Assembly (NCBI GenBank): GCA_030706145.1
Contig: JAUZPB010000001.1
Coordinates: 62,001 to 126,000, forward strand
Length of the DNA stretch: 64,000 bases
Direction: 5' to 3'
From: Bacteroidota bacterium
GTDB taxonomy: Bacteria > Bacteroidota > Ignavibacteria > Ignavibacteriales > SURF-24
Shown here: in pieces, positions 2,203-47,827 of the stretch
Layout: the number at the start of each line of letters is the position of its first letter
Numbering within the stretch: position 1 is the first letter of the stretch
Made by a program: the position numbers and the translations under genes
Notes under the pieces: generated by a model
Databases searched by the model: none
Seen by the model: the letters and a program-made list of their open reading frames with translations, nothing else
Told to the model about the DNA's origin: nothing

Positions 2203-3102
2203 ATGAAAACTAATATCTTACAACAGCTTAATTCAGGCATAATACTGCTTTCAGATGGAGCTATGGGCACAGAGCTACAGAAACGGGGATTCACTAGTGG
2301 TGTATGTCCCGAAGAGCTAAACTTTACAGAGCCAGAATTAATAGGATCTATACACAAAGATTATTTTGAAGCTGGAAGTGATCTTGTAGAAACGAACTCT
2401 TTCGGAGCTAACAGGATACGACTTTCACTTCATCAGATGGAAGACCGGGTTGAGGATTTTGCAAAGAGATCGGCTGAACTTGCACGCTCTGTTTGTCCAA
2501 AGGGAAAGTACGTTGCCGGATCAATTGGGCCCACAGGAGAAGTACTTGAACCTTTAGGGACACTTACACTTTCAGATGCCTATGACGCTTTTGCACAGCA
2601 GGCAAAAGCCCTCTCATTAGGAGGAGTAGACATACTGTTTATAGAAACAATGATGTCAATTGAAGAAGCCGAAACGGCAGTTAGGGCTGCAAAAGATAAA
2701 ACAAATCTTCCTGTAGCTGCAACAATGACTTTTGAGGTAAGTCCCACAGGTATAAGGACAATGTGGGGAGTTGACGTAAAAACAGCAGTGGAAAGATTAA
2801 GTCAGGCAGGAGCCGACATAATTGGATCCAACTGTGGGCGTGGCTTTGATGAAATGATCGAAGTTATAAAAGAGATGCGTCCATTAACTCAAAAGCCAAT
2901 CCTTGCACAAGCTAACGCTGGAATTCCAGAGTGGATAAATGGGCAGAGTGTTTACAATGAGACCCCAGAGGTAATTCTGCCAAAGGCTGAGACTCTACTA
3001 AAATTAGGCGTAAATATAATTGGAGGCTGCTGTGGTACAGGACCGGAACATATAAGAGCCATTCGAAAACTTGTCCTGGAGTTTAATACAAGCAAAGTCT
3101 AA
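2203..3102 (+). CDS. Homocysteine S-methyltransferase domain protein
   Basis: A 299-residue single-domain homocysteine S-methyltransferase of the MetH N-terminal / betaine-homocysteine methyltransferase family. It should transfer a methyl group to homocysteine, giving methionine, in the cytoplasm. The three zinc cysteines are visible: C211 in GSNCG and C276-C277 in GGCCGTG. The N-terminal DGAMGTEL and the segment ETNSFGANR are also typical. No folate-binding or cobalamin-binding domain is fused, and none is encoded elsewhere in the window. With the two preceding genes this suggests a methionine synthase split into separate polypeptides. The methyl donor cannot be read from this sequence. Confidence 0.88.
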   Translation: MKTNILQQLNSGIILLSDGAMGTELQKRGFTSGVCPEELNFTEPELIGSIHKDYFEAGSDLVETNSFGANRIRLSLHQMEDRVEDFAKRSAELARSVCPKGKYVAGSIGPTGEVLEPLGTLTLSDAYDAFAQQAKALSLGGVDILFIETMMSIEEAETAVRAAKDKTNLPVAATMTFEVSPTGIRTMWGVDVKTAVERLSQAGADIIGSNCGRGFDEMIEVIKEMRPLTQKPILAQANAGIPEWINGQSVYNETPEVILPKAETLLKLGVNIIGGCCGTGPEHIRAIRKLVLEFNTSKV

Positions 3103-3215
3103 GTTTTAATAGAGATACAATTTTATAGCCAAGATACAATTTTGCGCAATATCTTTTTTTTCTTCAAACTTCGTATATTGGGCTATTAAAAATTTACCTA
3201 CTTAAAGGAAATTCA

Positions 3216-3989
3216 TTGAAGACAAAACTAGATATTGCAAAGAACTGGCTTCCAAGATATACCGGAACACAAATAGATGAGTTCGGAGATTATCTTTTAC
3301 TTACAAACTTTCACAACTATGTGACCAAATTTGCCGAGGAGTTCAACTGCGAGATCAAAGGCATAGGGCGGCCTATGCAAACTGCAACGAACAACAATGG
3401 TCTAACCATTGTCAACTTCGGAATTGGTTCTCCAAATGCTGCTACAATAATGGATCTGCTGGTTGCAAGACAACCTAAAGGTGTGCTATTTCTAGGTAAA
3501 TGTGGTGGAATAAAGCATTCGACAGAAATCGGGCATTTTATTCTCCCGATTGCAGCTATAAGAGGAGAAGGAACCTCTTTAGATTATTTACCTGCTGAAG
3601 TACCGGCGCTGCCATCATTTAAGCTTCATAAATTCATTTCTGATAAAATAATTGAGCATAAGCAGGAGTATCGTACAGGAGTCATCTATACGACAAACAG
3701 GCGTGTTTGGGAATGGGATGATGATTTCAAGAACTACCTTCGTAAACTTTCTGTAATAGGAATTGACATGGAGACAGCGACAATTTTTATTACTGGTCAC
3801 GTAAATACAATTGCCCGTGGAGCGCTTCTTCTAGTCTCAGATATGCCAATGATACCAGAGGGGATCAAGACAGAAGAATCAGACAAAAGAGTAAATGAAG
3901 CATTTGTAAATCTTCATCTTCAGATCGGTATAGAAGCAATGACTGAGATAGGGATAAAAGGAGAGCAGATCAAGCACTTCCAGTACTAA
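3216..3989 (+). CDS. amn: AMP nucleosidase
   Basis: 257 residues of the nucleoside phosphorylase fold, closest in pattern to the short Bacteroidota AMP nucleosidase, which hydrolyses AMP to adenine and ribose 5-phosphate. Recognisable segments are NWLPRYTG near the N-terminus, the phosphate/ribose loop FGIGSPNAAT, GKCGGIKH, and the purine-site IDMETATIF. The start is TTG at 3216, supported by an AAAGGA Shine-Dalgarno ending 6 bases upstream; no ATG fits better. The E. coli Amn is much longer because it carries an extra regulatory domain absent here. The stop codon lies inside the first unit of a 13-bp tandem repeat. Confidence 0.85.
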   Translation: MKTKLDIAKNWLPRYTGTQIDEFGDYLLLTNFHNYVTKFAEEFNCEIKGIGRPMQTATNNNGLTIVNFGIGSPNAATIMDLLVARQPKGVLFLGKCGGIKHSTEIGHFILPIAAIRGEGTSLDYLPAEVPALPSFKLHKFISDKIIEHKQEYRTGVIYTTNRRVWEWDDDFKNYLRKLSVIGIDMETATIFITGHVNTIARGALLLVSDMPMIPEGIKTEESDKRVNEAFVNLHLQIGIEAMTEIGIKGEQIKHFQY

Positions 3990-4028
3990 CTTCCAGTACC
4001 AACTTCCAGTACTAACTTCCAGTACTAA
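3977..4028 (+). repeat. Four tandem 13-bp repeats starting inside the AMP nucleosidase stop
   Basis: The unit CTTCCAGTACTAA occurs at 3977-3989, 3990-4002 (one change, CTTCCAGTACCAA), 4003-4015 and 4016-4028. Unit 1 encodes the last residues FQY plus the TAA stop of the upstream gene. The period is not a multiple of three, so later units are not in one frame. Confidence 0.95.
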
Positions 4029-4098
4029 AGGGAAGTCCTCTTGAGAATAGCTGTGTCCCCCGCCCCTTTTATTCATGGAGACGAGGGACAAAAAGTTT

Positions 4099-4716
4099 TT
4101 AGTATCTAGACAAATAGAAGTTAATACCTGCGCGCAGTGCAAATCCCGAGGAATTAAGAGTAGTGAATCTTGTCTCAGAAACATCCTTGTCAAATGAAGC
4201 GCCATTATAGAGAGCCTCGACAATAAGCTGGCTTTTAGAGCCAAGGCCAAACATAATACCACCTCCAAGCTGCCAGACAAAGCCGTTATAAGTAAAGGAA
4301 GCAGACTGCTTCTGTTCGAGGTTTTCATAAGAAATATGTGTAAAACCATATCCTAAGCCTGCAGTAGCAAAAGGTTTAATTGCTTCCTCTTGAATTGGAA
4401 TTTCAACTCTTGCCTTAAGAGTAAAGGGAAGGTGCCACCCTATCCACTGGCTAAGATGCTGGTATTGCTCTATCTTTACACCGAGCTGTTCAGCTTCTCC
4501 ATAGCTTACATCCTCATTTATGCTCTTATAGTAAAAATCGGTACCTAACATAATAGAGACACTTTCATCAATCCTATAACCATAATCAAAGCCCAATATC
4601 ATACCGGACTTAAGATCGGCCGGGAAATAATAACCAGCCTTAATGCCAACAGTTTTAGACTGTGCAAAAGCATTAAAGGACAAAACGACTATAAATAACA
4701 ATAAAAATTTTTTCAT
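4099..4716 (-). CDS. Outer-membrane beta-barrel protein, secreted
   Basis: About 205 residues with a clear signal peptide (MKKFLLLFIVVLSFNAFA, cleavage before QSK) and alternating amphipathic strands ending in an aromatic C-terminus (FYLSRY), as expected of a small porin-like or OmpA-type beta-barrel. The ATG at 4716 is preferred: GGAGG lies 8 bases upstream. A GTG three codons earlier overlaps that site and is unlikely. The protein is alone, transcribed against AMP nucleosidase. Function is not recognisable beyond the barrel; glycine-rich segments such as GLGYGF and GGGIMFGLG are typical of OMP_b-brl proteins. Confidence 0.75.
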   Translation of the reverse strand: MKKFLLLFIVVLSFNAFAQSKTVGIKAGYYFPADLKSGMILGFDYGYRIDESVSIMLGTDFYYKSINEDVSYGEAEQLGVKIEQYQHLSQWIGWHLPFTLKARVEIPIQEEAIKPFATAGLGYGFTHISYENLEQKQSASFTYNGFVWQLGGGIMFGLGSKSQLIVEALYNGASFDKDVSETRFTTLNSSGFALRAGINFYLSRY

Positions 4717-4900
4717 GGCACACACCTCCGGGGATTTACCTATTCAAGATCAAAATAATTCCGGCATGAAATTAAATAATAATACATTGTATTTCAACTA
4801 GCTTTCAACAGTCTATATCCTAATTTCAGTGGAGTTTTAAGTTTAATTTCACCATTTTTAAAGCACTGAAAAATGTTTTATTCTTTTTTAAGGAGAATTT

Positions 4901-6136
4901 ATGGCCATCATCAGACCATTCAGGGCTTTGAGGCCCGAAGAAAGTGTTGCCCACCAGGTAGCCAGTGTTCCCTATGACGTAGTTAACCGTGAAGAAGCCG
5001 CACTATACGCAAAAGATTTTCCCTTTAGCTATTTAAGGATCACAAGAGCAGAGATTGAAATGGATGAAAAAACGAATCCCTACTCAAAAGAAGTATATTT
5101 GAAGGCAAAAGAAAATCTTGAAAAGATAAGAAAGCAAGCTCCTCTTAAGCTTGAAGAGAAGCCCTGCTTCTATATTTATAAGTTAATCATGGGCGAGCAG
5201 CAGCAGACAGGAATAGCTGCAACATTTTCTGTTGAAGACTATGATAATAATGTTATACTAAAGCACGAAAGGACAAGGAAAGAGAAAGAAGATGATAGGA
5301 CGAATCATATTATTACCACAGAAGCACAGACTGGTCCTGTCTTTTTAACTTACCGTGCAGTCAAAGCCATTGATGAGCTTGTAAATGAAACTATGAATGA
5401 AACTGAACCTATATATAATTTTACTGCCCCCGATGGAATTAAACATATAGTTTGGATACTTCCAGAGGAATTTAATGAAGTAATAATATCAGAGATTGCA
5501 AAAGTAAAATATCTCTATATTGCCGATGGGCATCACAGAGCTGCAAGTGCAAGCAGGGCACAAAAGGTAAAAAAAGAGAGTAATTCGGCGCACGCGGGCA
5601 ATGAAGAATACAATTATTTCTTAGCTGTACTTTTTCCAGCCGATCAGTTAAATATAATGCCATACAACCGAGTTGTCTTTGATTTAAATGGTCTGAAGAA
5701 AGAAGATTTTTTTGAAAAAATAAAAGATTTTTTTACTATTGAAGAGACGAATTGTGATGTCCCATCTTCAAGACGGGAAATCTCAATGTATATTGATGCA
5801 AAGTGGTATCTGCTTAAACCAAATAGTTTAGTAAAGCAGTCAAATAATGTGGGAGATAATCTTGATGTAAGCATACTTCAGAGTTATCTACTTACTCCTG
5901 TTCTTGGAATAAATGATCCGCGTACAGATAAAAGGATCGACTTTATTGGGGGCATAAGAGGTACAAAAGAACTTGAAAGGTTGGTAAACAGTGGGAAGGC
6001 TGCAGTTGCATTTTCAATGCATCCCGTCTCTGTATATGAACTGATAGATATAGCAGATGCCGGAGAGATAATGCCACCGAAATCTACATGGTTTGAACCA
6101 AAGCTTCGTGATGGATTATTAGTACACTTGATATAA
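4901..6136 (+). CDS. DUF1015 family protein
   Basis: 411 residues matching the DUF1015 family: N-terminal IIRPFRALRP, the segment ASVPYDVVNREEA, the central IADGHHRAASA, and a C-terminal FSMHPVSVYEL with GEIMPPKSTWFEPKLRDGL. The biochemical role is not established. DUF1015 genes are often found beside serine biosynthesis genes, and here serC follows 72 bp downstream on the same strand, so a role in serine or phosphoserine metabolism is an inference. A good Shine-Dalgarno (AAGGAG) precedes the ATG by 6 bases. Confidence 0.85.
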   Translation: MAIIRPFRALRPEESVAHQVASVPYDVVNREEAALYAKDFPFSYLRITRAEIEMDEKTNPYSKEVYLKAKENLEKIRKQAPLKLEEKPCFYIYKLIMGEQQQTGIAATFSVEDYDNNVILKHERTRKEKEDDRTNHIITTEAQTGPVFLTYRAVKAIDELVNETMNETEPIYNFTAPDGIKHIVWILPEEFNEVIISEIAKVKYLYIADGHHRAASASRAQKVKKESNSAHAGNEEYNYFLAVLFPADQLNIMPYNRVVFDLNGLKKEDFFEKIKDFFTIEETNCDVPSSRREISMYIDAKWYLLKPNSLVKQSNNVGDNLDVSILQSYLLTPVLGINDPRTDKRIDFIGGIRGTKELERLVNSGKAAVAFSMHPVSVYELIDIADAGEIMPPKSTWFEPKLRDGLLVHLI

Positions 6137-7355: not shown

Positions 7356-7381
7356 ATTACTTTTATGGAGAATTATATGAT

Positions 7382-7807
7382 ATGAAAAAAATTAGTCTTT
7401 TTCTTATATTGATCTTAGTAGGTTTATCTGCCTGCAAGAAGAAGCCTGAAGTAAAATTTGAGGCATTCAGCCCAGAGGCTGCGGCTTATAGTTTGGACAG
7501 TGGTTGGGAAGTTGACGCTACGGTAATGGTACGGGGCTATGAAATGAAGAATGAAAATTCTCAGAATAGTGTAAAGGTTGCCTATAGTGTTGATCTGGTC
7601 ACTCCGGATAATAAGACCCAAAAGGGACTCTTTGCAGATACACTTGCTGAAAGCAGCACAGATCCTTATAATGATCTGAAATTAGAATCTCAGATTGAGT
7701 TGAATTCGACCTATGTTCCGGGCAAATACAAGGTAGTTTTTAACATAAGGGATCTCTACTCAGGGAAACAAACCAGCACAACCAAGGAGCTTGAAGTTAC
7801 CAAATAA
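7382..7807 (+). CDS. Small putative lipoprotein, unknown function
   Basis: 141 residues. A lipoprotein signal is clear: MKKISLFLILILVGLSAC with the lipobox LSAC and the acylated cysteine at residue 18, followed by KKK. The mature part is beta-rich (for example KYKVVFNIRDLYSGK) and looks like a single immunoglobulin-like or transthyretin-like sandwich. I do not recognise a family. It follows the serC terminator and precedes an RsbRD-type sensor domain gene by 31 bp. Anchoring in a membrane facing the periplasm is predicted from the signal only. Confidence 0.6.
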   Translation: MKKISLFLILILVGLSACKKKPEVKFEAFSPEAAAYSLDSGWEVDATVMVRGYEMKNENSQNSVKVAYSVDLVTPDNKTQKGLFADTLAESSTDPYNDLKLESQIELNSTYVPGKYKVVFNIRDLYSGKQTSTTKELEVTK

Positions 7808-14021: not shown

Positions 14022-14081
14022 AATTTTTCTATTAGGAAAGATTCTCACTTAAATCAAGAATTCCACAAATCCAGGATGGAC

Positions 14082-14161
14082 CCTCGGGTTTATTTTCCTT
14101 CGGGTTTATTTACCTTCAGGATTATTTTCCTTCGGGATTATTTACCTTTCTTTTTATTTAC
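14082..14161 (-). repeat. Five tandem 16-bp repeats at the end of the SEC-C protein gene
   Basis: Units on the plus strand are at 14082-14097, 14098-14113, 14114-14129, 14130-14145 and 14146-14161, with consensus CTTCGGGTTTATTTAC and a few substitutions each. The last unit covers the final lysine codon and the TAA stop of the minus-strand gene ending at 14154. Read from that gene, the array runs downstream from the stop. Confidence 0.9.
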
Positions 14162-46850: not shown

Positions 46851-46890
46851 GTTTTCAGCTATTGCAAAAAGAAATTCATTTTCATGGTCT

Positions 46891-46946
46891 TCATTTTAAT
46901 GATTTCATTTTAATAATTTCCATTTTAATGAGTTTCATTTTAATCT
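46891..46946. repeat. Four imperfect tandem repeats upstream of the hydrolase gene
   Basis: Units at 46891-46904 (TCATTTTAATGATT), 46905-46918 (TCATTTTAATAATT), 46919-46934 (TCCATTTTAATGAGTT) and 46935-46946 (TCATTTTAATCT, partial). The period is 14-16 bp. The array ends 9 bases before the ATG of the hydrolase gene, next to its Shine-Dalgarno. Confidence 0.8.
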
Positions 46947-46955
46947 AGAGGGATC

Positions 46956-47810
46956 ATGTTACATAGGGAATTCAGCTGGATAAGCAGCAGAGACATAAAA
47001 ATTTATGGTCAGACGTGGATGCCATCAAAAGAAGATGGGGAAATTAAAGCGGTGGTTTGCCTGGTTCATGGTTTAGGGGAACACAGCACGCGTTACAAGA
47101 TACTGCCGCGCGTTCTGATAAAAAACGGATATGCCTTAATAGCATTTGACCAGCCCGGGCATGGCAAGTCAGGAGGCAAGCGGGGGCATACACCTGACTA
47201 TGAAGCTTACATGGACAATATAACTGCTCTTCTAGATAAAGCTGCAAAGTTATATCCGGGCAAAGATCGTTTCTTGTATGGGCATAGCCTTGGAGGAAAT
47301 CTAGTAGTAAATTATTCCTTACGCCATAAACCTGATATAAAGGGAGTAATAGCTACGGGGCCTTGGTTTCGCCTTACTCACCCCCCAGGAAAGTTTATTC
47401 AAAAGTTTGCCAGATGGTTAGATAAATTCTGGCCAAGCTTCCGTACTTTTAATGGAATTAAACCGGTCTACCTTTCGAGTAACGGAGTAAAAAACGTCAC
47501 ACGTGAACGTGACAAATATCTGCATCCATGGATATCTGTTAGGACATATCTAACGGCTGAAGAGACAGGGCGCTGGGCTTTGGAGCATGCAGGAGAGCTT
47601 CAATATCCAATACTAATACTTCATGGTGGAGAAGACCATGTGACCTCAGCTGAAAGTTCAAAGCAGTTTGCTTCAAAAGTTAATACTAATTGCACAATAC
47701 AAGTCTATGAAGGACTTTTCCATGAAATCCACAATGAACCGCGCAACCAGGAAATATTTGCAAAAATAATTGGCTGGTTAAACTCACAGGTTAACCAATC
47801 TGTAATTTAA
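46956..47810 (+). CDS. Alpha/beta hydrolase, lysophospholipase/monoacylglycerol lipase-like
   Basis: 284 residues. Oxyanion motif LVHGLGEHSTRY, nucleophile S111 in YGHSLGGNL, acid D in LILHGGEDHVTS and H in GLFHEIHNEP. The pattern, including AFDQPGHGKSGGKRGH, matches the PldB/monoacylglycerol lipase group (hydrolase_4). No signal peptide, so cytoplasmic. It follows tag after a tandem-repeat spacer and has GAGGGATC before the ATG. Its stop codon lies in the first unit of a 16-bp direct duplication. Confidence 0.88.
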   Translation: MLHREFSWISSRDIKIYGQTWMPSKEDGEIKAVVCLVHGLGEHSTRYKILPRVLIKNGYALIAFDQPGHGKSGGKRGHTPDYEAYMDNITALLDKAAKLYPGKDRFLYGHSLGGNLVVNYSLRHKPDIKGVIATGPWFRLTHPPGKFIQKFARWLDKFWPSFRTFNGIKPVYLSSNGVKNVTRERDKYLHPWISVRTYLTAEETGRWALEHAGELQYPILILHGGEDHVTSAESSKQFASKVNTNCTIQVYEGLFHEIHNEPRNQEIFAKIIGWLNSQVNQSVI

Positions 47811-47827
47811 TCAATCTGTAGTTTAAT
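47796..47827 (+). repeat. 16-bp duplication spanning the hydrolase stop codon
   Basis: CAATCTGTAATTTAAT (47796-47811) and CAATCTGTAGTTTAAT (47812-47827), one difference. The first copy carries the last codons and the TAA stop of the hydrolase gene. Confidence 0.9.

Follow-up and report, generated by a model that had tools for sequence, protein, structure and literature searches.

A 13-bp tandem array across the stop codon of an AMP nucleosidase gene in an Ignavibacteriales genome

The AMP nucleosidase gene end and its array

The window (the whole stretch of DNA that was analysed, 64,000 nucleotides) contains an AMP nucleosidase gene, identified by a match to NCBIfam NF005500 (379.2 bits; cut-off, 264 bits), and a convergent gene for an outer-membrane beta-barrel protein, the two being separated by 109 bp. 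A 13-bp tandem array begins within the first of these genes, crosses its stop codon and runs on into the gap. The features of the locus are as follows.

3216–3989, forward strand: AMP nucleosidase gene (NCBIfam NF005500, PF01048), 257 aa from a TTG start to the TAA stop at 3987–3989
3976–4028, forward strand: 13-bp tandem array, 4.1 copies (TRF score 99, 95% matches, period 13)
3977–3989, forward strand: unit 1, CTTCCAGTACTAA, within the AMP nucleosidase gene, carrying its last codons and stop
3990–4002, forward strand: unit 2, CTTCCAGTACCAA, with a single substitution (TAA to CAA)
4003–4015, forward strand: unit 3, CTTCCAGTACTAA
4016–4028, forward strand: unit 4, CTTCCAGTACTAA, whose TAA is the next in-frame stop, 12 sense codons past the first
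3970–4044, forward strand: predicted RNA hairpin (−19.6 kcal/mol, z −2.62; 2 of 200 shuffles equally stable)
4099–4725, reverse strand: outer-membrane beta-barrel protein gene, convergent (ORF and PF13505)

The initial annotation had described four nearly perfect 13-bp units, the first of them holding the final codons and the stop, and this description was confirmed. Positions 3977–4028 consist of exactly four 13-bp units of CTTCCAGTACTAA with one mismatch in total, that in unit 2, and unit 1 encodes the last bases of ...IKHFQY together with the TAA stop. The flanks do not extend the unit (of its 13 letters, 3 are matched on the left side and 5 on the right). When a 1.03-Mb sample of the same genome was copied with a first-order Markov model and scanned for arrays with a TRF score of at least 50 and a period of 7–60, only 5 arrays were returned (109 in the real sample) and the highest score was 63, so that the 13-bp array, with its score of 99, lies far above chance. 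When at most 2 mismatches were allowed, the unit had six matches in the window versus 1.97 expected by chance; four of the six are the array units themselves and two stand alone. Head-to-tail, near-identical and repeated beyond chance, the units are those of a minisatellite. A further suggestion, that copy number could vary while the protein stays the same, holds as a matter of logic, since the duplicated unit includes the stop codon: in silico translation of versions with 1 to 8 units gave the identical 257-aa protein each time.

Comparison of the gene end with relatives

AMP nucleosidase matches were present in 56 of 59 genomes, and 30 of these loci were compared. The C-terminal end was exactly IKHFxY followed by the stop in 23 of the 29 other loci, while the remaining six had closely similar residues in that place (IRHYRY, IKHLRY, IKHYQY and, three times, IKHFTF). 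In a more varied set of loci, I[K/R]HFx[Y/F] plus stop was seen at 25 of 32 ends, the others being variants or at least one codon longer. Among the loci that could be named, those nearest in protein sequence include Ignavibacteria-type bacteria.

The same-family comparison comprised five genomes in four genera, this genome being the only one of its genus. In the four other same-family loci (L085–L088, with the second G002 copy left out) the protein was 84–87% identical and the gene end was alike, and no array was found at the 3' ends of their AMP nucleosidase genes; the array motif was not found anywhere else in these four genomes either. A two-unit motif searched with up to 3 mismatches had its sole site in the 5.34-Mb genome at the array itself. 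Of 58 relatives only two, G012 and G055, contained a match to the same motif, once per genome and with 3 mismatches, and a reversed-pattern control was matched in 3 of the 58. A dispersed family of the MIRU-like or TAACTGA-like kind was therefore rejected, the two-unit motif occupying one site only in the genome and its matches in relatives being no more frequent than those of the control.

These data support the proposal that the array is a duplication of the gene's own 3' end. Because IKHFxY plus stop, or a close variant of it, is common to relatives that lack the array, unit 1 is, as judged from this comparison, the ancestral gene end, and units 2–4 are additions in this lineage. In addition, every one of the four units carries CAG, the glutamine codon of HFQY, at a place where the four same-family loci encode arginine, so that the copies probably arose after this arginine/glutamine difference and the array is probably young.

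Arrays with a TRF score of at least 30 that cross the end of the stop were found at 5 of 110 AMP nucleosidase loci (80 plus 30, with the own copy, L084, counted and two loci, L004 and L095, apparently from one species). Next to the score of 99 seen here, the other four were weaker (L109, 54; L075, 47; L064, 46; L102, 39) and their units were unrelated. Two of them, L064 and L075, are from Larkinella genomes, where the weak repeats GAATTAA and AATAATGAACAATT, unrelated in sequence to the 13-bp unit, lie across the AMP nucleosidase stop.

Short arrays at stops and starts in the genome

Short arrays were surveyed in 61 stretches covering 1,028,663 of the 5,335,520 bases of the genome, window included, with a TRF score of at least 50 and periods of 7–60; the ORFs used were not curated genes but the longest open frames, with a minimum length of 90 or 150 aa. 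This gave 109 arrays, of which 15 lay over a stop, 2 over a start, 48 between genes and 44 inside ORFs. The view that the AMP nucleosidase array is notable is weakened by this count, the array being one of 15 with such a position. The 15 had 15 different units.

Whether stops are enriched depended on where arrays were allowed to fall. With uniform placement over whole stretches, 3.7 stop overlaps were expected versus the 15 seen (0 of 200 resamples reached 15), and 3.0 start overlaps were expected versus 2 (83 of 200 were as low), so that starts are not depleted by this measure. The fourfold stop excess (15 versus 3.7), taken alone, would allow a positive cause. With placement restricted to positions outside ORF interiors, for the 65 arrays not wholly inside ORFs, 11.7 stop overlaps were expected and 50 of 300 resamples reached 15, while the 2 start overlaps compared with an expectation of 10.3, and none of 300 resamples was as low; by this measure stops agree with expectation and starts are depleted. 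Under two ATG-only gene calls there were 4 start overlaps, a count as low as that coming up in 5 and in 20 of the 300 resamples, and 15 (90 aa) or 13 (150 aa) stop overlaps. Depending on the gene-calling rule, stop overlaps in the own-genome sample thus ranged from 13 to 15 and start overlaps from 2 to 4.

With one and the same gene call, the period of the arrays was a multiple of three in 34 of the 44 inside ORFs versus 4 of the 15 at stops and 17 of the 48 intergenic ones, and stop-straddling arrays therefore look free of coding constraint. Where tandem duplication is concerned, gene ends thus resemble intergenic DNA, which is what would be expected were a duplicated stop harmless. A tandem duplication across the stop codon leaves the protein as it was, however many copies there are, so that arrays of this kind can persist at the ends of genes, in line with the 15 stops versus 2 starts in 1.03 Mb. 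In two relatives the excess at stops was weak (G020, 3 of 27 arrays with 1.1 expected; G004, 2 of 18 with 0.6 expected), and at 80 AMP nucleosidase loci of other genomes there was no excess, none of their 31 arrays lying over a stop (1.2 expected).

Origin of the array and its relation to known repeats

We consider it highly probable that the array is a neutral, lineage-specific minisatellite produced by tandem duplication and slippage at the end of the AMP nucleosidase gene. It would have begun with a local 13-bp tandem duplication at the extreme end of the gene, and later slippage would have raised the number of copies to four. With the stop codon inside the duplicated unit, the first stop and all that lies upstream of it would be kept at any copy number; the additional copies would land in the 109-bp gap between the convergent genes, and the array may have persisted since it is harmless at a gene end. 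According to Yi et al. (2014, PMC4169377), the formation of new tandem repeats involves direct repeats 3 to 8 bp long or other paired sequences. In a one-unit version of the locus no direct repeats of 4–7 letters spaced 12–14 bp apart were present, leaving the usual slippage seed out of view, and slippage between bracketing direct repeats of this kind was set aside. The one-unit version does have the two halves of a 6-bp inverted pair, ACTTCC and GGAAGT, on either side of the unit.

The number of copies might be an error of assembly, and the genome is indeed a draft in 345 contigs. Against this, the array spans 53 bp, which is below ordinary short-read length, the substitution in unit 2 sets that unit apart from the others, and the array lies well within a contig of 159,754 bp, all of which makes a wrong copy number very improbable. 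It could also be proposed that the copies of the stop are retained to catch read-through ribosomes. The next in-frame stop is 12 sense codons on, in unit 4, versus 26 with a single unit, and frame +2 runs into the TAA of unit 3. However, two units would place the next in-frame stop 28 codons on, which is no gain over one unit, the TAA has already been lost from unit 2, and 11 of the 15 stop arrays have a period that three does not divide, near the two thirds expected without selection. Moreover, Ho and Hurst (2019, PMC6764699) report that in eubacteria they see no compelling sign that extra stops are selected for. We therefore give a back-up role for these stops hardly any credence.

An effect at the level of RNA was also considered. 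Here the array would alter a 3' hairpin, whose arms are the gene end and the downstream GGAAGT/CTTGA, and so tune transcript stability or shield the transcript from convergent transcription. The predicted pairs are 3970–3974 with 4040–4044, 3976–3981 with 4031–4036 and 3982–3987 with 4021–4026. Computed on 81 nt, the fold has a z of −2.62 and beats 198 of 200 shuffles; in constructs built from perfect units, the downstream GGGAAGT is paired with an upstream partner with a probability of 0.94–0.99 over the whole range from 1 to 8 units, and the best fold includes the outer stem TCAAG/CTTGA at 1, 2, 4, 6 and 8 units and lacks it at 3, 5 and 7, so that copy number could in principle switch it. 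Yet the full stem already forms with one unit, which makes the array unnecessary for it, and the wider 161-nt stretch (3950–4110) is ordinary, with a fold z of only −0.93. Shuffling also breaks the repeat, and the self-complementary AGTACT in tandem may by itself add stability to the unshuffled fold. An intrinsic terminator, which consists of a GC-rich stem and a T run after it, was rejected: the hairpin at 3970–4044 is not followed by a T run, and a terminator scan of 3000–5000, which covers loops of 3–8, gave no site at the array. No Rfam family was matched at the array, the two matches elsewhere (4837–4922 and 4343–4414) falling far below the gathering score. An RNA-level role is accordingly considered unlikely. 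A broader version, in which the lineage would gather short tandem duplications preferentially at stops as adjustable 3' RNA hairpins, with even and odd numbers of AMP nucleosidase units switching the outer stem and thereby tuning the transcript, strikes us as a very long shot.

A neutral minisatellite, the reading preferred here, has counterparts among known repeats. Like bacterial minisatellites and VNTR-type repeats, the array is made of short head-to-tail units, is lineage-specific, lies outside coding constraint and plausibly arose by duplication and slippage. VNTRs are defined by copy number that differs between strains, whereas the genus is represented here by a single genome. MIRUs overlap the stop and start codons of neighbouring genes. 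The mycobacterial MIRU-VNTR loci are, like the array, tandem repeats between genes, although their repeats measure 40–100 bp and occupy 41 places on the M. tuberculosis chromosome (PMC2734929), as against 13 bp and one site here. The TAACTGA heptamer repeats of Beggiatoaceae, Cyanobacteria and some Bacteroidetes (PMC4679880) are likewise tandem and carry stop triplets, and in the Beggiatoaceae genome 13 sets of them are described as overlapping the stop of the upstream gene. According to the same source, however, TAACTGA is one dispersed 7-bp sequence, which in the Beggiatoaceae genome lies for the most part immediately before start codons, whereas the 13-bp unit is confined to a single site and would have been copied from the gene's own end. 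Repeats that overlap stop codons are thus already in print, and the array is a real but ordinary instance of them. By itself it is of little importance; stop-straddling arrays could help to tell strains apart when several genomes of the genus become available.

Other short arrays of this genome were seen alongside. Another of the 15 stop-straddling arrays also belongs to the window: 16 bp in period and 2.3 copies long (47791–47827), it lies over the stop of an alpha/beta hydrolase gene (46956–47810). A 16-bp array of 3.9 copies over the TGA stop of a 265-aa ORF (L166, positions 7371–7432, on contig C282 of G000) is the nearest parallel in copy number among the 15 stop-straddling arrays. A link between it and the AMP nucleosidase array through the common word CCAGTACT was considered and discarded, as its 19 occurrences in 1.03 Mb fall inside the range of five letter-shuffled control words (11 to 53 occurrences each), with no enrichment. 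Two other arrays in the window, both intergenic (14080–14148 and 46875–46944), have basic units of ~15–16 bp and, with scores of 110 and 98, respectively, are roughly level with the AMP nucleosidase array.
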